From contig VWND01000033.1 in assembly GCA_009599575.1 (NCBI GenBank), positions 186,001 to 250,000 on the forward strand: a stretch of 64,000 nucleotides of DNA, read 5' to 3'. Under the pieces are notes generated by a model. It was not told where the DNA came from and did not search any database. It was given only the letters and a program-made list of their open reading frames with translations. Positions 46,553-58,050 of this stretch are shown one piece after another. Source of the stretch: Blumeriella jaapii (lineage: Eukaryota; Ascomycota; Leotiomycetes; Helotiales; Drepanopezizaceae). A program made the position numbers and the translations under genes. Every line of letters starts with the position of its first letter. Position 1 is the stretch's first letter.

Positions 46553-47060
46553 TTAAAAACCAATCAACCAAAAACCGAACTTTTTTAATCCCATACTCTT
46601 TCGGTTTTTTAATCTGTTTTTAGCCTTTTTGCTATTGGCTTCTGCGAAAAGATAGCGTTTCGCTTATCGTTTAAATTATTTTATTCATCCTGCTTTTTTA
46701 AAAAATAGCTCGATAAAATATCAGTCGAAATATCGTTTAATTTTACGAATATTTTAATAATTTTTTCGTCGATAATATTATTAAGCGTCGCCGCGACAAA
46801 TGCTTTTTACGATTTTTTTTCGTAAATAATAAATTTCAACTTTTAAACGTGGTCCTACGCTTTGCAAAAAGCATTAAAAAATCTTATATTAAAATCGTAA
46901 AAATAATCGATTAATTCGTCGTAATTAAAACCGATTAACGCTTTTGCTTTACGTAAAACTAATAGATCGGACTACGGTTATTTATCGACGAATGCTTTTA
47001 AAAAAGCTTCGAAGCTTGTAAAAAAAACTATTTTACGAAATAGTTCGAAAATAGTCGTTT
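46553..47060 (-). pseudogene. X-family accessory ORF, C-terminal part (X4)
   Basis: The last about 170 codons, before the Y2 insertion. Here the codon that is a stop in X1, X2 and X3 is TGG, so the frame runs six codons further (Trp-Leu-Ile-Gly-Phe and stop at 46553-46555). This identifies the likely ancestral C-terminus and shows that the shared stop in the other copies arose by G to A change. The remaining sequence carries the IFNNIIDEK and KPIAKR-type landmarks. Confidence 0.65.
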
Positions 47061-47362
47061 TGTCGTGCATAGCTGAATAGTCGGTAGGAACCCTCACCGG
47101 AGGATGGAACGGATGAATTGTATGCAGTAAGATGTTATTTGTATTGTTCTAAGTCTGACTGGCGAGCTCTCCGCAGAAGACGGAAGGTTCGGGCTCGCTT
47201 AGTCAGTCGCTCGGAAAAACTAGTCTTCGAGGAGGCTCGTTATCACGTGACTACGAGCTTTTCCGAGCTTCAGGAACATCTAACTACTGAAAGCGTACAG
47301 GAAGAATGAATCTGGAACAAAAGAAATGAAAGGAAATAAAGGAATGTAAATATAGCGCAACA
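47061..47362 (-). repeat. Y2 3' LTR
   Basis: The plus strand starts TGTCGTGCATAGC and ends TATAGCGCAACA. It differs from 54972-55273 at six positions, all C/T on the plus strand. A 63-codon open frame on the plus strand (47118-47309) is kept in both LTRs; its Arg-rich centre (RALRRRRKVRARLVSR) has no recognised function and may be incidental. Confidence 0.95.
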
Positions 47363-47370
47363 CACCCCTT
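47363..47370 (-). promoter_or_regulatory. Y2 polypurine tract
   Basis: Minus-strand AAGGGGTG directly abuts the 3' LTR, as expected for the plus-strand DNA synthesis primer of an LTR retrotransposon. Confidence 0.6.
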
Positions 47371-47397
47371 AGCTGATTGCCAATTCGGCGATCAGCT
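47371..47397. repeat. 27 bp imperfect palindrome beside the polypurine tract
   Basis: Arms AGCTGAT and ATCAGCT enclose GCC..GGC around AATT; 11 of 13 base pairs are complementary. It lies between the 3' LTR and the plus-strand gene, in that gene's presumed promoter region. Confidence 0.8.
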
Positions 47398-47580
47398 ATT
47401 CTCAAAGCGCGGGAAGGTCTTTTTGTCGTCCGAATGCGGCCGTAACGCGATATTGCAATATTTATGTGGCTTGTTCACATTTTTTGTCGTTGCGGAGCGT
47501 GAATGAGGCCAATTCAGCTTAAATGAGCGTCTCGTCGCTTTTGAAAACCTCAACTTCTTCATCTTCTCATCAGTCTTCTA

Positions 47581-48810
47581 ATGGATTCAGGCTCCACTAT
47601 TTTGATCAGAAACATCGATATGGCCTTTCCCACACCCAAAAGAGGTCGTCCGCGTGGCTCCACGCGACAAGTTGGCCCAGTTCTTCGGACTTCCAGTCTT
47701 CGGCGCTTGCGCAATCGGAGTTTTGCGGAGTCTATTTTGCGCAATCAGTCGGCCTTTTCGGCCAATTCGTCTCTTTTTGACCCTTTCGAAAGGGGCGACC
47801 CTTTCGATGTTTCGTTTTTGGACGGTTTTCTCGGAGATCCATACTTGCCCGGCCTCGAAGATGCCGATGTGGCGCCTGGAGGTGGGGGAAACGCTGCTGG
47901 CGGTGGAGGAGCTACTGGCGCTGGTTTCGGTCCTGGTGGCACTCCCGGGGAGGGAGGGCAGAACACTGGCGCTTTTGGAGAGGGAGCGCCCGGGGGTCAC
48001 CAGGGCGAAGGGACTGGAGGTGGGGATGACGACGATGGTCGTCCTTCAAAACGCGCTCGCACTGGGGCCAGGAAGCCTGCTATTCCTGGGCCTCCCAACC
48101 CTACTTCTTGTGTGACCTGTGTTGCTCGCGGAGCAACTGGAAACCTAGACTACGACTGCCTGTCGAACTTGGCTGGAGCTCGTTGCTGTCGGTGCCACGC
48201 AACCAGCACGTCGTGCATTCCGGCCGACGCGAACGTTTTGGCTGCGTGGTCTTCCGTTTTCAAAGCTCGGGTTGACAAGGTTATTGAAGCGGTCAGTTTT
48301 ATCGAAAAACTCTGTCGTCCCTGCTGATCGATTCCTAGGATATGACGGTCATTTTTTACCCCACGGTCAAGGCGGCTTTGAAGGTGCAAAGAAGTAAGCT
48401 TCCAAGTCGATCGTAACTCAGGAGCAAAGCTAATAAACACAGAGCGTATCACTGACGCGAAGCTCGCCGCGGCTCGTGGGGTTCCCCAGACTCCTGCTCC
48501 TGCTCCTCGAGTGGAAACTTCTACCCCTGCTCCACGTGCTGGCGGGATGGGGCCTGGCCACGACCCATCAGAGAATGCTCCCGTTCCTGGAGGTCCAGGA
48601 GGGAATCTCGCGGCGACCCTTTTGCCAAACGTTCCTGGTCCTTAGCCTGGTGGAATTCCGCAAGGAGGAGGGAATGTTCCGGCTGCACAGCCGGCGGCAG
48701 CTGTTCCTGGAGGGGCTATCGGGGGGTTTATCCCAGGTCTGACTGTCGCGGAGCGTCGGGCGCGGGTTGTTGTTTTGGCGGGTCATATTTTTGACCTTTT
48801 GCAAGGCTGA
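47581..48810 (+). pseudogene. antisense accessory gene in Y2: AT-hook and Cys-rich protein, intron-containing, mutated
   Basis: On the strand opposite to gag-pol. An ATG at 47581 opens 248 codons. Residues 20-27 KRGRPRGS form an AT-hook (minor-groove DNA binding). Residues 95-150 are Gly-rich and end in an acidic run. KRAR at 157-160 looks like a nuclear localisation signal. Residues 177-212 hold C-x2-C-x12-C-x8-C-C-x-C-x6-C, a possible zinc module. After residue 243 a one-base loss in an A-run (48305-48309) shifts the frame. In the shifted frame coding-like sequence continues past a TAG (48336) to a 49 bp intron (48394-48442), then a Pro/Gly-rich exon with a TAG at 48643, ending AERRARVVVLAGHIFDLLQG with TGA at 48808-48810. 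It ends tail to tail with pol, 130 bp away. Together this suggests a nuclear DNA-binding accessory protein or captured host gene. An alternative start at 47523 is in another frame. Confidence 0.7.
48394..48442 (+). other. predicted spliceosomal intron in the antisense gene
   Basis: 49 bp, starting GTAAGC, with a branch-like GCTAAT and ending ACACAG. The intron interrupts a codon after its first base, and removing it joins two reading frames that otherwise differ. Size and signals are typical of filamentous fungi. Confidence 0.65.
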
Positions 48811-48940
48811 GCGGTCTGGTTTTGGGTTTCTGGGTTTGCGGAAGGTTCGGATTTCCTTTGGTTGGAGGGTGGTTTTGCTGTGTTTTAAGTTTTAATGAAA
48901 GTCTGTTTAAATGAATGTACGCCTGCAAAGTGCAAGCTTT

Positions 48941-49671
48941 TCAGCTCGATTGGTCGAGCTTTTCGATAAGGCTCCGAGAATCCCGTAGGTTGAGGAGTTT
49001 GACGAAACTTTCGTGCTTTTGTCGGGTCAGATTCTTGGTGAGACCGTCTGCGTGCATCTCATCTGTTGGGAGGTATGTGATTTTGAACTTTCTATTTTGG
49101 TACTTCTGGCGAATTCACATATTGCTTATGTCGACGTGGCGGAGCTTCGTGGAGATTCTCTCTTTGTCTTCTACGATTAGTCTGATTGTTTGCTGGTTGT
49201 CGCAATATACGTTTCACTCAGGAACAACATCGAGTCGAAGCTCCTTGAAAAAACGTTGGAGTGCCATCATCTCCTTCACGGTCGCCACACAAGCAAGTAG
49301 CTCCGCTTCAGTGGAAGAAGTGGTGACTGTGTTTTGTCGTACAGCTTTCCACAAAATGGCACCTCCGAAAAGAAAGAAGATATAACCTTGAGAGGATTTT
49401 CGAGTTTCTGGGTCGTCGGCGAAAGAGGCGTCGGTGGAGATTATCAATTGGTTCTCCCGCTCCTCCCGACTGTAGACGATCCTTAGGAACCTTGTTCCAT
49501 AGAGATATCGAAGCGTCCAATTGGCTGCTTCGAGATGTTGGAGACTTGGGTTGGTAAGAAAGTAAGAAAGCTGAGAGGCTGCGAAGGCCACGTCGGGTCG
49601 AAGCATGATGGCCGTGTACAAAATTGAACCGACCTTTTCTTGATACTTCTTGATCTGCGGAGGCGTGGCTA
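48941..49671 (-). pseudogene. copia RNase H (Y2 pol C-terminus)
   Basis: In a frame shifted by one base from the RT: GVATPPQIKKYQEKVGSILY, LRPDVAFAASQLSYFL, AANWTLRYLYGTR, then STDASFADDPETRKSSQGYI (RNase H Asp) and TTSSTEAELLACVATVKE (Glu). The tail VYCDNQQTIRLI and EMHADGLTKNLT ends in TGA at 48941-48943. TGA codons at 49214-49216 and 49115-49117 lie where Trp is expected, both explained by single G to A changes. It degrades RNA in the RNA:DNA hybrid. Family identity is certain; the copy is broken. Confidence 0.9.
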
Positions 49672-50508
49672 CGCCTGGGTTTTAACAAATTCGCAGGTTG
49701 GGAGAGGCGTGCTTGGAAAGCGCCCTTTGCATGCACCAAATTTCGTAGCGATTTTCTCGATATACGAGTCGTGGAGCAGGGAGACTTCTTTTTTTTGTTT
49801 GTTTCGTAGGATACGGACTCCGAGAAAGTAGTCCAGATCTCCTATGCTTGTAAGCTCGTAGGCCTTTTTCAGACCGAGAATGATTTCGTCGGCTTTTGAC
49901 GAGTGGGAGGCGTGGTATAGAACTTGAATATCGTCGACGTAGAACGCCACGTACACGCTTCGCACCTCGTTGGCGAATATACAAGGCTCCTCGCCCATTG
50001 GTTCGAGCTTCAGCTTCCTCAAAGTGTTGGCAAATTCGCCGTACCATAAAGCTGGAGAGTCCTTCAACCCATACAAAGCTCGGTCTAGCTGTACCACCAT
50101 ACCTGGTTGTTTGAATCCATCAGGCAGATGGCACGTAACTGGCTCACTCCTGGAGTTTCGTTTTGCATTAACGAAAGCATTGACCACATCGAATTGCTTG
50201 ACTTCCAGGTCGAAATGGGCCGCCAGCGCTATAACCGTTCGGAAAGAACGGGCTGCGAGTGTAGCTGCGTATGTAGAAAAGATTGAAGCTTCGTTTTGGA
50301 GGTCTCCCTTTACGACTAGTCTCGATTTGCACCGCTGCAACTCGCCTGAGCTGTTCGTTTTGTATGTGAAGACCCATTTGAGTGGAATGGGTTTCATGGT
50401 TTTATCCTTTTTGACAATCCTCCAGCACTTTCTGGTCTCCAAGTTCTTGATCTCGGTCCTTGCTTCCTCTTTGAACTGCTCTCCCATCTGGTGGTTTTTC
50501 AATTCGTT
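49669..50508 (-). pseudogene. copia reverse transcriptase (Y2)
   Basis: A 277-codon open RVT_2 domain. KWVFTYKTN and CKSRLVVKGD come first, then QFDVVNAF with catalytic Asp105, ALYGLKDSP, and FYVDDIQVL with the YVDD motif at residues 188-191. DYFLGVRI follows. The catalytic residues are intact. It is preceded by an in-frame TAG (50509-50511) and ends at a TAG (49669-49671) just after the TPLPT segment. The downstream RNase H continues in the next frame, so a one-base indel near 49670-49690 separates them. Confidence 0.93.
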
Positions 50509-53025
50509 CTAGTTTTTTGGAGCCTTCGGAAGGTTGTCCCGATGTTGTTTTTGGTCGGAAGGTTGAATATTCCTTACCGACTTTTCTCTCATCGAAGCCG
50601 CCATCATTGCGTGGACAGCCTGGAGGTCTTTTCCATCCATCTGAATCGGCTCGTCTGTCCAAAACGTGTAGACGAATTCGTCGATCTGTTGTTTGGTGGA
50701 TGGAGCCACTGGTTGAAAGATTTCGCATACCGTGGCGTACACTTCCGGTCTATCCGGCCAGTGTGAAGTGGAGTCTGTACGATTTCGTTTGGCAGTCTCT
50801 GGAATCAGCTGCTCTTCATCGCTTATCGGAAACTTCGATTTGTTCCTTCTACTCCTTCTGAATGGTGCCTCCTCCTCAGTAGTCAGCCTTGGAGGAGCTT
50901 CCAAAAGCAAGCGTTCAGGTGGCTGCTCTATTCTAAGTCGATCTGGCGCCTGATCTGCCGGGCGATGGCTTCTAATTATGACTTGAGGGGTTGAATTGCG
51001 CGCTCCCTCGTATAGGGCCATTTCCATGCCCGCGCCGGAGGACCTCCTGGAGCTTTGCTCTGCTTTATCCTGTCCTGCAGTAATGAGCTTTGCTAGTTTG
51101 TTACTCCTTCTTGGATCTCCATGACTTTCTGACGCTTCTATCGCGTCGGTCAGAGTGTTTCGGATGTGCTTTGCATACTCCCGACTGATAACTAGTCCTG
51201 AAGATTGAGACTGGTCGGTAGTAGCTTTGTCGAGAGGGCTTTTATAGGGGACTATCACTCCCGAGCTCTGGACGTCTGAATCGACCGTAGAGGGAGGCTC
51301 GATCGCCTCGACCTCCATTGGGTCTTCCACCCCCGAGGATTTGGCTTCCTCTGGGATGTCTAAATCCATTGGTATTGAAGTGTCCTCCTCCTCCACCGTA
51401 GGCCTTGGAGGTCCATCAGGGGGGCCTGAAATCGGTCCTGGTCCTGATGGCGGCTCCGGTGGAGAAGGACCTCCATTCCCTCTTGTAGAGTCTGGAGGTT
51501 GCTCGTTTTGTGATAGTGGCTCTTCCTCTGTATCATCCCTCTCCCAGCACACCGAGTTTTGCTGGTCTGCGCCGCCATTGAGACCGCCCGCTAGTGTCTG
51601 ATACTCAGCGTTCTGAGCTCCTTCGTCCTCCGCGTCTTCGATAAACTCCACGGTCTTCTGAAGCTCTAGTCTAGTTATGGGACTTGGACTTTCAGCCTCC
51701 GAGGAGTAGAACTTGGACTCGTCAAACACTACGTTTCGGCTTGTAATCACACGCATCAGCTGGGGCACCCAGATTTTGTAAATGTTGGAGGCGCTATATC
51801 CAACCAAATATCCGATGTGTCCCTTCGGGAGGACTTTAAATTCTCTTTTGTGTTTTGTGGCCTTCCGATCCTTTATCATTGGGTACGCACGAGCTCCGTA
51901 CGCATAAACTTTGCTCCAGTCTGGTTTGAGATCGGCCGTACGCGCTTTCACAATGGCAGGGTCGTAGTACCGAAAATATTGCCTGAACCAGCTGTGCAGA
52001 ACTTTATTTGGAGACTTGAATTGTCTCCTAGCAAGCGGCGACATATTGTACAAATGCGCTGCTGCTTCTATCGTTTCGGGCCAAAGGGAGGTTGGAAGTC
52101 CCGCCCCAATTCTCATTTTTATCGAACGCTCAATTACTTCCCTCCCTGCTCGTTCGATCGAGCCGTTTGGCTGGTGCACGTAGGGTGGAGTCAATTCCAG
52201 ATCGATACCCTTGCGCTCCGCCCATCTTTGGTACTCCGAAGTGGTGTTTTCTTGTCTTGGAATTACCGACGACTCGTTATTTTGTCGAATTTTGCAAATG
52301 GAAAGGTTGTATTGGCGTTTCACCCATGCGTCGAATGTCTGGAGACGGTCCAGAATGACTTCCATACCTCTCGTCCTGGTGGCGGAGGCCCAAATCTTCC
52401 CACTGTACTCGTTCTTTATCAGGAACATCCACGTCGAGCCGTTGTAGGCTTCTTTACGACCTTTGGGATAGTCGTAAAAGTCCCAACCGATGCGAAAGAA
52501 AGGTCTGGGAGACTTGTTCTCTGATGTTGCCCTTGAAATCACCTGCTTTGAATGCGTAACAGCATACTTCTCGCATTCCATTTTGGTTGAGCCTTTGATT
52601 TTTATTCCACGAGTGTTCTCGACCAGCTTTTCGAGCGCGTTTTTATCCAAATGGCCCGAACGAAGGTGCCATAAGCGCGCATCGTCATCCCGATCGTACG
52701 TAAACACGCTGCTTTTCTTGAACTTATGGCGCGTACGACGTTTCGGGGTTGTATAAATCATCAGGCCGGGCGAATCACGTTTCAAAGAGTGCAAATTGTC
52801 ACGTGGGGAGTGCGAACAAGAAGAGCAGTTGACCTTGATGTATTCAAACACACAGAGATCGGCGATCGTCTGACATTGACGTTTCAAAATGGAGCTTTCA
52901 GGGCTCCCAGAACGAAGAGTATTGTCTGACCCTTGGAACCAGTAACCCTTTTTAGCCAAAAGACTAGCGGAAATGATGTTGGTGGTGAAGTCTGGAACGA
53001 ACGCCACGTTGTTGAGAACCATATC
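50509..53025 (-). pseudogene. copia integrase and linker (Y2)
   Basis: An 837-codon open stretch. NVAFVPDFTTNIIS is the end of the protease-proximal region. LWHLRSGHLDKNAL (His119, His124) with CEKY at 150-153 is the HHCC finger, with Tyr in place of the last Cys. The core has IGWDFYDY (Asp180), RQNNES with Asn248 (codon AAT) where the second catalytic Asp belongs, and PNGSIERAG (Glu290). A C-terminal GYLVGY region and a long Pro/Ser/acidic linker lead to RT. It would insert cDNA; loss of Asp248 should abolish this. Confidence 0.92.
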
Positions 53026-53421
53026 CTAGGGCTTCCCATTCTTTTTGCGAAGGGCCCCTTTTATCCGACGACTCCCTCTTCCGACGATTGGAAGACTCTG
53101 TGTGCCTGCATGGACGCTGTTGGTGGGGTTATCAACCTCCTTGTAGGACCCTTCGATGAAAAGGTCCTTGTCGTTCACCAAATGGGTTCCAGAGCAGTTG
53201 TCAAGAAGGGTACTTTTGTCCAAAGGGTGACACTGACCAGGCTTCAGAGCCAGAACGTTGATTCCGAAGTGCTCTTTGATCGCATCAGGGCAAGGAAGAC
53301 AGAAAGTTGCGGTAGAGGACTCCTCCTGGTCGTCCTTGGAGGTTGACTTTGGAGTCTGTTTTGGCTTGGTTGTTGGGACTCTAAGGATTTTGTTGATTGC
53401 GACCATTTGGATACCTTTTCA
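53026..53421 (-). pseudogene. copia protease (Y2)
   Basis: Open from 53421, with an ATG at 53406. It reads STLLDNCSGTHLVNDKDLF, where the usual D-S/T-G-A is D-N-C-S-G-T. It then runs SLPIVGRGSRRIKG to a TAG at 53026-53028 followed directly, in frame, by the integrase stretch. The first about 175 bases overlap the end of gag in a different (-1) frame. I saw no classic slippery heptamer in the overlap. Confidence 0.8.
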
Positions 53422-54629
53422 TTTAGAGCCTTCAGGGCCTTTTTGTGATTGGAGGACAGCTCTTTTCGCATTTCAGCGATCTTCTGCCTGTCTGGGGGGT
53501 TGGGGAGAGTCTTTTCTTCACGACGACTATTCATTGCGTACAAAAGCTTTCTATAATCGGTTGGGGGATAGAAATGGCGCTCCTTGGGAGTGTCGCATGG
53601 GCAGTCATACCCTTTTCCTCCTTCTTTTTTGCCTTTTCCTCCTCCTTCTTCACGACCTTTCGAAGTATCGTTGTTTTCAGAATCGAGAAGGGAAGTGGCG
53701 AAAACTCCGACCTTTCGGCCTGAATTGTCGAATCCTCGGTTGTTCTTAAGGGAAGAGACTATAAAGCTCAGTTCGATTGGAGTCTTCTTCATGGGGAGGC
53801 CAGCAAGTTCGTCTTCCAGATACTCAGCCTTCTTGCCGTTCGCCCATTGTGGATTGATGTGTGCGGCGACTGCGTCGAGAAAATCGGTGGCAGCGTGGCG
53901 GCCATCCATATCAGAAATCTTGTACTCGACAGCTGCTCTGTAAGCGGTCTGCCATTCCTTCATCCACTCGGTCACATTCACCTTCCCGCTGTACGCCTTG
54001 CGGAGAGTGTTCTTGTAGTCAGATCTGACGGAGCTAACCACGGAAGAGTGTGCAGGGGCAATATCTTTTTTCAGAATACGAACGAGTGCCTGGAGTGATC
54101 TCTGCTTCTTTTCATGGTGTGGATCCTTGACCCTTCGCACACTTCCATCTATCAACGAATCTCTCTGCAGGTCAGTGTGGAGAGTGGCGTACGCTTTCTT
54201 ATTATTGGTAGCGTTGATCTCCGATTGAGCGATTGCAGAGTTCATCAAACTGGTTTCTACAGTTGAAAAGACCCAGTCGAGCAACTTCTGGTAGGCAGTA
54301 ACGTACTCCTGCCACTTCTTGAGCTCCTTTGAATGGTTCTTGGAGAGGTGATCGATCTTATTTTTCAAATCGTCGAAGGTCAGATTGGCTGGTCGAGGCC
54401 TGTCGGAGGGGTTACCAGTCGTAACGGCGGCCCTTTCTGCCTCGGTCATGCTGTTGTATTCGGCGCACTTTCTGTCGTAGTCTGCTTGGCGCTCTCTGTT
54501 CCTCTGATCGATGAACTGGTATGGCGACTGTTTTTGTGGTCGTTCATCAATAAGAGAGCGAAGTGGAAGGTCAGGATCGGTGTAATCGAGGGGAAGAATC
54601 CCTGATCGGTGAAATTTGTACGCTCCCAA
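53244..54629 (-). pseudogene. copia gag (Y2)
   Basis: 461 codons open from 54629. The frame stays open upstream to about 54800 without an ATG; an ATA in a start-like context (ATATCGGCC, near 54695) may be a mutated start. The first in-frame ATG is at 54449. The central part is helical and charged (KELKKWQEYVTAYQKLLDWV). The C-terminal zinc knuckle has Cys343, Cys345 and His352, with Tyr359 where Cys is expected. The C-terminus is Ser/Gln-rich and ends inside the protease frame. It forms particles that package element RNA. Confidence 0.85.
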
Positions 54630-54960
54630 CCAGGAGATCCACGATTTTGGGTCGTGAAGGAAAACCTTCTTCTTTGTGGGGGCCGATATGTTGTTTTCGT
54701 TGTGGAGGGTCGATTGACTGGGTTGAAAAGAGTAGAAAGATGAGAATGAGGTTTGTAGGTTGAGGAGATCGAAGAATTGATGTTTTCCGCATTCTCAATG
54801 GCCTTTTATCGATTCGTGGCCTTTTGCCAAGTGAGGAAAACTCTGCAAAGTATAACCTCCTACGAATATCTTTTGACAATTCGAATGGATTGACCGGTGA
54901 GGGCTCCCAACGAGTCTCCTAGCGTATGCATTGCAGAAAGAAGCTTATTGATTGGCTCCG

Positions 54961-54971
54961 GGGCTCATAAC
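54961..54971 (-). promoter_or_regulatory. Y2 primer-binding site (half-tRNA type)
   Basis: Directly next to the 5' LTR the minus strand reads GTTATGAGCCC. This is complementary to GGGCTCATAAC, the anticodon arm of eukaryotic initiator tRNA-Met, rather than to a tRNA 3' end. Drosophila copia and yeast Ty5 prime in this way from a cleaved initiator tRNA. Confidence 0.75.
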
Positions 54972-55273
54972 TGTCGTGCATAGCTGAATAGTCGGTAGGA
55001 ACCCTTACCGGAGGATGGAACGGATGAATTGTATGTAGTAAGATGTTACTTGTATTGTTCTAAGTCTGACTGGCGAGCTCTCCGCAGAAGACGGAAGGTT
55101 CGGGCTCGCTTAGTCAGTCGCTCGGAAAAACTAGTCTCCGAGGAGGCTCGTTATCACGTGACTACGAGCCTTTCCGAGCTCCAGGAACATCTAACTACTG
55201 AAAGCGTACAGGAAGAATGAATCTGGAACAAAAGAAATGAAAGGAAATAAAGGAATGTAAATATAGCGCAACA
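54972..55273 (-). repeat. Y2 5' LTR
   Basis: 302 bp, partner of 47061-47362, with the same plus-strand 63-codon open frame (55029-55220). Followed by TSD CGTTT. Confidence 0.95.
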
Positions 55274-58050
55274 CGTTTACAATCGAAACCACCGAAAATG
55301 CTGTAATTATTTTCGCCGCAATATAAACAATATCAAATTGCTTATCGGATTATCGTTTTCGAAATAGTTTTTGTACTTCTGCGCCGTATAATTATTCGAA
55401 TAAACCAATATTACGCCGTCGGTTTTTTAGGTTCTGAATCTGACGAAAACCTTTTGCTTAGTCGAAAAGCTGACAAAAGTTATTTTATTTTTTATTTCGT
55501 AATCTTCGATTTCGTAATCCGATAAAATAGCCGAAACTATTGCTTTAAACGCGCTAAAATACGAAAAAGCCGGGCTTTTCTAAATGGTTTTAATCAGCTT
55601 AACGTCGTAGTATAATTGCAAATAAACTTCGATTATTTTCGAATTATATACGAATGCAAGCAAAACGTAATAATCGAAAATAGCGTCGGTAAGATTTTCG
55701 ATTCTTTTCTTTTTTTAAAAATCGGCGATATCGAATTTTATAATTGTAATACGATCGGGACCAACGAAACTTAAGGCGATCGGAACGTTAAAATAAGCTA
55801 CGAAGCGGCAGTTTCCAAAATTCCGAGTAATTAAAACAGCGAAATAAAAGCCGGGATGCATTTTAAAAGCTTATTAAATAAAACTGTAAAGTATATTAGC
55901 GAAAAAAGCTGTAGGCGCTTTTTGGATTTTAATTAATCGGAAATAATATTTATATATAACCATTTTTTTTTTTATAAAATACAGTAATGGCTTGTTTTTT
56001 CCGTTATAAAACCTTACGTAATTAACGAATTCGCAGCTTAATTTAAATAAATTTTAAAATACATTTTCGGTCGAAAAGCTAAAAAAATCGATTTTTAAAA
56101 ATACTCGTTGCTTTTATTTTTCCACGTTTTAATCGAGCTTTATAATCGCGCTAAAAGCTTTAAAATCTGTTTTAAAATTTGCGTAGCCTAAGTAAACTTT
56201 CGCATACGCTTAAGTAATTTTCGCAATTTTTCGTCGAGATATAAATTAATTATTAAAATTAATTTCGAATACGTCGTAATCCGAATTTTTAATAGCAACG
56301 AATCGATTAGCGAAGCCGATAACATCGATTTTTTTTGTAATTAAATCGTAATACGCCGCGTAATAGCGTACGTAAAAATAGCAAAACTTATCGTTTTTTC
56401 TAGCGTTAATATTATTTGTAAAAACGAAATTAAAAAATCGGAATTTTTTAGCGAAAAAAAGCTCGAGTAAAAACGAATTACCGTTTTCAAAAGTTTTTTT
56501 TATTTGCTTTAGCGTATTATATTTACAATTTTCCGAAAAAAACTTGGTTTAATTTTCGTTCGAAGCAAAAAAAAAAAAAAACTGACGGATTTATTTAATT
56601 TTTATATAAAAATATCGAAGTAAAACTTTTAAATCGTTTCGTCGTCGAAAACGAAAGTTTTAAGCAAAATAATTTGATTTTGTATTTTTTATATAATTTT
56701 TTTCGCGATAATTTCGATATTTTTTTCCAAGCTTTTTTTATCGAATCGTATAATAATCGAAATCTTAAATGCTTTTATCAGAATCTGAAATATTAATAAT
56801 TCGACGTTTTTAAACGCAGCAAGCGTTTTTAGCGTTTGCGTATTTAATTTCGAAAAATCAAATTCAGAATCGTTTAAATTTTTTTTTTTCGAAATACCGG
56901 CGTTTTTTAAATCTGATTTTATAAAATCGTCGCGTTTTTTATTAACTAGCTTAAAACTTATAGCTCGGCGTCGATTTCCGGCTATTTTTACTCGCGATGC
57001 CTTTTCTTTTAACGACGCGAATAATTTTTTTTTCCGAACAAAAAAGATTTCGGAAATATCGGCGCGCTTTTCTACGTTTTCTGTTTTTACTTTTTCCGAA
57101 ATCGTTTTTATAAATATAATAAATTTTTTATATTCGAATAAGCGGTTGTTTGTTATTACGCTTTTAGTTTCGTTTTCGAATTCGTTTTCGACAATTGAAA
57201 ATAAAAATCGCTAAATTATTTTAGCTGCTTTAAAAGTATTAATTGCTACCGCGTATATTTTTTCGAATTAAACGAAAATAATATTAGCTTTTTCGTTTCT
57301 TTCGTTGTCGTAGATTTAAAATATCGGAATAGCGTCGTTTTTTTCCTTCGATATAAAAATGCCGCATTTAACGATATTTAGTTTTTTATTTTAAAAAAAA
57401 ATCAGATTTAAAATTTCGCAACCGATTAAAACTTTTTCTAACGATTGTATAGCGTCGTTAACCAATTTGCAAACAGCTGTAAAAAAGCTTATAAATCTGC
57501 GGGCCCTTAAGTTATTAGCTTTTAAAGCTTGCGCTTTGAAAATATAAGCGTTTAATACCTAAATTTCTTTTTTAATAAAATAATAGTTTCGAAAAAACAA
57601 GCGAAATATCGAAATGAAATAACACCGATGATTTTGCTAAAAACGTATTTTTAAATATTTTTTTTTGTTAATTTAGCAAAAAGCGCAAAATTCGGTTTAT
57701 CACCTTTTTTTTATTATTTCGAACTTTCCGTACTCCGGCGAAAGCTTTTGAAGCGTTATCGTAATTTAATAAAAATTTGTCGTAATCAAAGCTTTTGCGA
57801 ACGAATTCAGCTTTAACGAAGCTTTCGTAATCGAATAAAAATTCGTTAACGTTTCCAATTATTATATCGAGTTGTTTTATAAATATTTTTACGAAAGCTA
57901 TTTATTAATCTAAAATAGCGGTATTATATATTTGCTTAAACTCGGAAAAATTACGTATAATAATTCCGTTCCAAAATAAATTAAAAATGAATTTGCCAAA
58001 TTTAATAACGCTTTGCTTAAAAAACAATATAATATCGATAGATTTATTAA
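55274..58050 (-). pseudogene. X-family accessory ORF, N-terminal and middle part (X4)
   Basis: Resumes the accessory frame on the far side of Y2, colinear with about 18420-21180 of X2. It carries the same landmark order, from an ALKAFAGV/AEAKKA-type helix near 57740 to the ILVYSNNYTAQKYKNYF segment near 55400. Many stops are present. With 46553-47060 it covers the complete frame. Confidence 0.6.

Follow-up and report, generated by a model that had tools for sequence, protein, structure and literature searches.

A two-intron antisense gene predicted in a fungal Ty1/copia retrotransposon family

Introduction

Does a gene lying antisense to gag-pol inside a fungal copia retrotransposon encode a protein of the element, and can it carry introns through retrotransposition? 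The question is raised by a 64,000-nucleotide stretch of a Blumeriella jaapii contig (hereafter the window), taken from an assembly of 47.4 Mb in 91 contigs. The original prediction saw there a plausible stable plus-strand cargo gene with a single 49-bp intron, coding perhaps for a nuclear factor or for a captured host protein. We have followed this gene through the copies of its family, and the results support part of that picture and revise the rest.

The element and its setting

The window is mostly AT-rich, at 22-39% GC per kb, while 47.0-55.0 kb reaches 48-55% GC, and this GC-rich block is a single LTR element. The Ty1/copia element spans 47061-55273 (~8.2 kb) and has a minus-strand gag-pol; it is bounded by two 302-bp LTRs that share 98% identity across 300 aligned bp. 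The paired TG..CA LTRs and the short (5 bp) target-site duplication are those of a Ty1/copia element, and the RVT_2 reverse transcriptase (RT) with the integrase part upstream gives the Ty1/copia domain order. The flanks beyond 47.0-55.3 kb are strongly AT-rich, consistent with RIP-degraded repeat DNA. The parts of the element are as follows.

47056..47060, no strand, target-site duplication CGTTT, left copy, read from the sequence
47061..47362, minus strand, 3' LTR, 302 bp, TGT...ACA
47363..47580, plus strand, leader between the LTR and the ATG of the antisense gene, 218 bp
49217..49606, minus strand, RNase H-like end of pol, presumably, named by its motif (no match in Pfam)
49672..50487, minus strand, reverse transcriptase of pol (RVT_2, PF07727, E 1.4e-36)
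50512..53022, minus strand, gag_pre-integrase-like and SH3-like (integrase) part of pol, by Pfam
53247..54449, minus strand, gag-like ORF, named by position (no match in Pfam)
54961..54971, minus strand, presumed primer-binding site (PBS), sequence GTTATGAGCCC after the 5' LTR
54972..55273, minus strand, 5' LTR, paired with the 3' LTR
55274..55278, no strand, target-site duplication CGTTT, right copy, read from the sequence

Within 50512-53022(-), upstream of the RT, Pfam gave a match to PF25597 (retroviral SH3-like domain), and PF13976 scored below its cut-off (24.1 of 28.4 bits). The presumed PBS seems to resemble the anticodon-arm region of initiator tRNA-Met. In the window copy pol is split into several ORFs. 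The protein database held 39 matches to pol at E<=0.001, the best of them 67% identical across 72% of the query; among viral contigs, pol gave 8 and 69 pattern matches and no relative.

The antisense gene in the copies of the family

Searches with the gene returned at least 40 scored DNA matches and at least 165 protein matches across the genome. The 144 RT hits were merged into 124 RT places and compared with 150 listed gene matches. Most copies of the family have the gene: at 98 of the 124 RT places a listed gene match lies on the opposite strand, 3' of the RT, at a gap of 1300-1500 bp (the match at C12:699085, whose strand is uncertain, stands outside this count). None of the listed gene matches falls within 3.5 kb at 22 of the 124, a figure that derives from 102 RT places with a gene match at <=3.5 kb, a number that may be one lower. 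Among 31 RVT_2 places beyond the listed RT hits, one (C11) has a listed opposite-strand gene match 3' of it within 3.5 kb.

For comparison between copies we aligned the window copy with 69 others (78 loci minus 8 duplicates of the same places), each locus being represented by its best BLAST stretch alone. All 69 start in LTR sequence and continue into the gene, and 68 extend to pol; one covers just 790 of the gene's 1230 columns. Relative to the window copy, each of the others carries 43-351 C>T/G>A substitutions over these ~1230 columns, along with 3-30 T>C/A>G substitutions and 2-23 transversions. Such an excess of C>T/G>A is characteristic of RIP. Of all 70 copies, the window copy is the richest in GC.

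Two further loci were considered. C11, at 36% identity, was a candidate for another family whose antisense gene had diverged; its 689 aligned sites hold 195 C>T/G>A changes, 4 T>C/A>G changes and 13 transversions, and it looks instead like a RIPped member of the family described here. At L079 (G000:C5:111500-114300), another copia-like locus, no related antisense gene was found in 2801 bases. This locus adjoins a different RVT_2 match that has fewer stops than most.

The gene model

The plus-strand ORF that had been predicted between pol and the 3' LTR is present at 47581-48327. It encodes 248 aa, begins 218 bp inside the LTR and is antisense to gag-pol; from stop to stop, the gene's open frame has 260 codons. 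The start had been put at 47523, which is an upstream ATG in a different frame and reads ATA in 67 of the 70 copies. Four plus-strand ATGs precede that of the gene (47434, 47464, 47503 and 47523); three of them are ATA in 67-68 of 70 copies, and the one at 47434 is kept in 46 of 70, yet is separated from the gene's open frame. The leader (47363-47580, plus strand) is presumed to be the site of the promoter or 5' UTR of the antisense gene.

Also in this stretch, between the presumed PPT/LTR and the gene, is an inverted repeat (47370-47398) whose 12-bp arms have one mismatch and are separated by 5 bp. The arms show only C/T or G/A variation among the 70 copies, and the repeat is a possible protein-binding palindrome or hairpin.

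The 49-bp intron of the original prediction has the expected signals (GTAAGC...CAG, 48394-48442). It cannot restore the frame alone, because the 248-aa frame closes at 48327, 5' of this intron, and a second intron at 48292-48338 (47 bp) is therefore required. The one-intron model was thus incomplete, and we propose instead the following three-exon model, in which splicing is predicted.

47581..48291, plus strand, exon 1, 237 codons
48292..48338, plus strand, predicted intron 1, 47 bp, GTCAGT...CTGAT...TAG, containing the stop at 48325-48327
48339..48393, plus strand, exon 2 of the gene model
48394..48442, plus strand, predicted intron 2, 49 bp, GTAAGC...CTAAT...CAG
48443..48810, plus strand, exon 3, Pro/Gly/Ala-rich, with terminal TGA at 48808-48810

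With both introns removed, 1134 bases remain, giving 377 codons and a stop that ends at 48810. In the window copy this frame is broken by a single TAG at codon 323 (48643-48645, exon 3), which is a sense codon in some other copies. The stop at 48325-48327 is TGA or TAA in 68 of the 69 other aligned copies and is hence a family trait rather than damage to the window copy. Related copies share the frame, and one of the 70 is free of stops when read in the window's columns alone. All four splice dinucleotides are intact in just 5 of 70 copies, a loss that is expected from RIP; the end dinucleotides of the 49-bp intron differ among copies mostly by G>A.

The prediction that such introns can survive retrotransposition follows from the orientation. 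The genomic RNA corresponds to the minus strand; introns of a plus-strand gene do not count as introns there, and are kept.

Coding constraint

Transitions in this family are swamped by RIP, and the tests were therefore built on signals that RIP does not produce. The first is indel phase. Within the exons, three indels occur in five copies or more (+3, -6 and +15), and each is a multiple of three. Seven occur that often in intron 1 or beyond the gene (+1, +1, -22, +1, -1, +1 and -1); none of the seven is in phase, and the last two are probably one event. The chance of this split, calculated by hand, is ~1 in 84 to 1 in 120, for a five-copy threshold that was picked after the list had been seen. 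Among indels in at least two copies, 3/9 are in phase in the exons vs 0/15 outside (~0.04, by hand); the split is weaker here because all six exonic indels in 2-4 copies are of 1 bp. Single-copy exonic indels are in phase in 12 of 62 cases, as for decaying copies.

The second signal is the share of synonymous transversions. In the spliced frame 30 of 81 transversions are synonymous where 18.3 are expected (P=0.002), and the excess holds for those present in at least two copies (11/26 vs 5.5, P=0.01). Exon 1 alone has 20 of 46 vs 9.8 expected (P=0.0006), made up of 6/15 vs 3.3 (P=0.09) in at least two copies and, by subtraction, 14/31 vs 6.5 in single copies. Most of the exon 1 excess is thus in single-copy changes, which should be neutral if they arose after insertion, and this weakens its reading as selection. 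Exons 2 and 3 have no synonymous excess overall (10/35 vs 9.5 expected), with 5/11 vs 2.5 (P=0.07) among transversions in at least two copies. None of the control frames (shifted exon 1 and three on the opposite strand) gave a significant synonymous excess, the best being an opposite-strand frame with 27/91 vs 22.0 (P=0.13), and pol as positive control gave 13/23 vs 4.8. The constraint seen in exon 1 is weaker than in pol. Exons and introns could not be told apart by the density of transversions per region.

The codon-position composition of exon 1 predicts that of exon 3 best when the two are read in the spliced phase, which leads the next phase by 19 log units; in a control outside the gene the phases differ by up to 18 units with the best two within 1, and since the control varies nearly as much, the composition of exon 3 lends weak support. 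Stops occur in any of the 70 copies at 16 of the 377 codons, and 11 of these are CAA, CAG or TGG, the way in which RIP creates stops.

We hold it very probable that exon 1 codes for protein under some constraint; exons 2 and 3 probably belong to the coding gene, a view based on their open frame, on indel phase and, weakly, on composition. A stable protein-coding gene of the element, as first proposed, agrees with the frame common to related copies and with the transversions of exon 1. Exon 1 does not show the neutral-looking substitution that the original prediction had named as evidence against the gene; exons 2 and 3 gave no synonymous signal.

These data also bear on whether the product might be shorter. 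The protein could be encoded by exon 1 only, running into intron 1 and stopping at 48327 after 248 aa, with exons 2 and 3 non-coding or decayed. Such a product would account for the near-universal stop at 48325-48327 and for a synonymous excess confined to exon 1, but not for the common 3n indels of exon 3 (-6 in 48 copies, +15 in 11). Both gaps moreover have GT..AG ends and branch-like motifs, their joint removal gives a frame with one stop, and the composition of exon 3 is in phase, if by a weak control. We regard this shorter product as rather unlikely.

An RNA rather than a protein might also be sought at this place. A spliced antisense lncRNA could pair with the genomic RNA and, by way of dsRNA or small RNAs, tune the element; the reading frame would then be incidental or secondary. 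In Blumeria hordei, lncRNAs antisense to transposable elements are partly spliced, some of them derive from copia, and they apparently encode no meaningful peptides (PMC10648671); a dsRNA role has also been raised for antisense ORFs (PMC7264820). The present gene is like the Blumeria transcripts in lying antisense in a fungal element, copia elements being among theirs, and in its predicted introns, which some of them also have, but it differs in its coding constraint. The common in-phase indels and the synonymous excess of exon 1 favour a protein, and we find the lncRNA explanation improbable.

The predicted protein and its relatives

The motifs named in the original prediction, an AT-hook, a Gly-rich/acidic linker, a basic patch and seven Cys, are all found in the translation.

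47635..47673, plus strand, AT-hook-like motif PKRGRPRGSTRQV, codons 19-31
47869..48039, plus strand, Gly-rich linker ending DDDDG, codons 97-153
48040..48078, plus strand, basic, NLS-like patch RPSKRARTGARKP, codons 154-166
48109..48216, plus strand, seven-Cys module, Cys 177, 180, 193, 202, 203, 205 and 212

The core of the AT-hook-like motif reads KRGRPRGSTR; we call codons 19-31 an AT-hook by likeness of motif, and the stretch has no match in Pfam. RPSKRARTGARKP is likewise called NLS-like by its likeness to such a signal. The Cys spacing, C-x2-C-x12-C-x8-C-x2-C-x6-C, resembles, without matching it, a fungal zinc cluster (Zn2Cys6-type), and a 111-residue piece matched no curated zinc-cluster profile (Pfam, E<=10). 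A bZIP domain was not found (Pfam, E<=10), and sequence searches of Pfam and PDB returned no match at E<=10. The AlphaFold model has a mean pLDDT of 33, which makes it useless as a fold model. Nonsynonymous transversions per codon were counted in domains drawn by eye. The AT-hook part, codons 32-96, the basic patch and the Cys module have 0.05-0.09; higher values, 0.13-0.25, were obtained for the N-terminal end, the Gly linker, the helix, the Pro/Gly part and the C-terminal part. The motifs suggest a nuclear DNA-binding protein, in line with the nuclear factor first envisaged.

Relatives were sought in several collections. Against 5.8 billion proteins, among which fungal proteomes are thinly covered, the 248-aa protein gave 4264 candidates, none with E<=0.001, so the homologue search advised in the original prediction returned none from the protein database. 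Residues 150-270 of the spliced product gave 108 candidates there, none with E<=1. The antisense protein had no relative in a plasmid collection, and its 16 pattern matches among viral contigs included no relative.

The search results and the distribution of copies together argue against a recently captured host gene carried as cargo, the other origin originally proposed. The intron-bearing structure is host-gene-like, and the GC content is well above that of the flanks, though so it is throughout the element. Against capture, the gene has one fixed place within the family (98 of 124 RT places at one distance), the 69 aligned copies all lie inside the element, the 5.8 billion proteins hold no homologue, with the thin fungal coverage noted above, and a weak, seemingly independent genome match looks like a RIPped member of this very family. 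No non-element homologue was found in the protein database, and of the at least 165 genome matches, part of those listed were checked for element context. Recent capture is in our view quite improbable; an old capture of a host gene would still be compatible with these results. Least credible of all is a functionless chance ORF in the GC-rich part of the element: the longest plus-strand stop-free run in 47363-49214, 260 codons, is matched in 19 of 2000 dinucleotide shuffles and by itself is just moderately unusual, and part of the transversion excess consists of single-copy changes, but indel phase together with the transversion pattern speaks against chance, and this cross-copy pattern is stronger coding evidence than ORF length.

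Discussion

Most of the listed examples of aORF-3R, additional ORFs that run antisense in the interval from pol to the 3' LTR, belong to Ty3/gypsy elements. The kind is already known, with cases in maize Grande (gene23), rice RIRE2, Silene Retand, bean PvRetro13 and Botrytis Boty, the last a fungal example, and in maize Grande the antisense gene is reported to have a promoter of its own and to give a nuclear product (PMC7264820). The gene described here is like them in place, orientation, presence in most copies, want of clear relatives and hints of a nuclear or DNA-related function. It is unlike them in its host element, a fungal Ty1/copia, and in its two predicted introns, and it has AT-hook-like and Cys motifs in place of the TRP28 or SMC domains reported for aORF-3R (PMC7264820).

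A second parallel is found in retroviruses. The hbz gene of HTLV-1 and the APH genes of HTLV-2/3/4 are antisense genes on the 3' LTR side that are spliced and encode mostly nuclear regulators, and antisense transcription of HTLV-1 is reported to start in the LTR (PMC10186651). The fungal gene shares the antisense position on the 3' LTR side, with splicing here as predicted only; it differs in having no bZIP and an unrelated protein, and HBZ belongs to a retrovirus, so that the logic alone is common to both. Together with PMC7264820 and PMC10186651, PMC11963269 is counted as a parallel case.

Within fungal Copia, the clades GalEa and FunCo1 have been defined (PMC5445492). The element resembles GalEa in LTR size and in a 5-bp target-site duplication that is within its range, and differs from fungal GalEa in its RT motif, YVDD instead of QTDD, and in its length, 8.2 kb compared with 5.4-7.0 kb (PMC5445492). 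After the 5' LTR it has GTTATGAGCCC (minus strand), unlike the FunCo1 PBS ATTAAGAGTCT (PMC5445492). The presumed PBS is also unlike that of fungal GalEa as given there. The words antisense and intron do not occur in the main text of PMC5445492, and among open-licence papers we found no description of an antisense gene of a fungal copia that codes for protein and has several introns. What appears to be new is the predicted two-intron protein-coding antisense gene in such an element; the place of the antisense ORF was already known.

The combined results suggest a model in which a Ty1/copia family of a RIP-bearing filamentous ascomycete encodes an antisense accessory gene for a nuclear DNA-binding protein, and we favour this model over its alternatives with some, not strong, confidence. 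The gene's place and orientation, its presence in most copies and the coding constraint on exon 1 are shown here, and the case for exons 2 and 3 as coding is supported but not proven. The accessory gene, which lies between pol and the 3' LTR and runs opposite to gag-pol, would be a regular component of the element. We infer that it is transcribed toward pol from a promoter in the 3' LTR or the 218-bp leader, and that its transcript is spliced twice (47 and 49 bp) into the message for a protein of ~377 residues, in which a basic patch and a Cys module resembling a zinc cluster follow the AT-hook-like motif. This protein most likely enters the nucleus and may there bind element DNA or AT-rich chromatin. 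Its regulatory role might be to control LTR transcription, as does HBZ of HTLV-1, though by a different route, or it might aid the integration complex, as has been proposed for plant antisense ORFs.

A more far-reaching version of the model is that a fungal copia independently evolved a twice-spliced antisense nuclear DNA-binding protein that regulates the LTR or counters silencing (RIP, heterochromatin), a counterpart of HBZ whose antisense placing lets its introns stay. This version is speculative, and we put it forward tentatively as a possibility below even likelihood.

To the question of what antisense accessory genes do in LTR retrotransposons, the family described here adds a fungal case with many copies and a testable model. 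The two short introns would serve as strand-specific tags, as any read spliced there must derive from the antisense gene, and the copies of the family are themselves a record of natural mutation by RIP.
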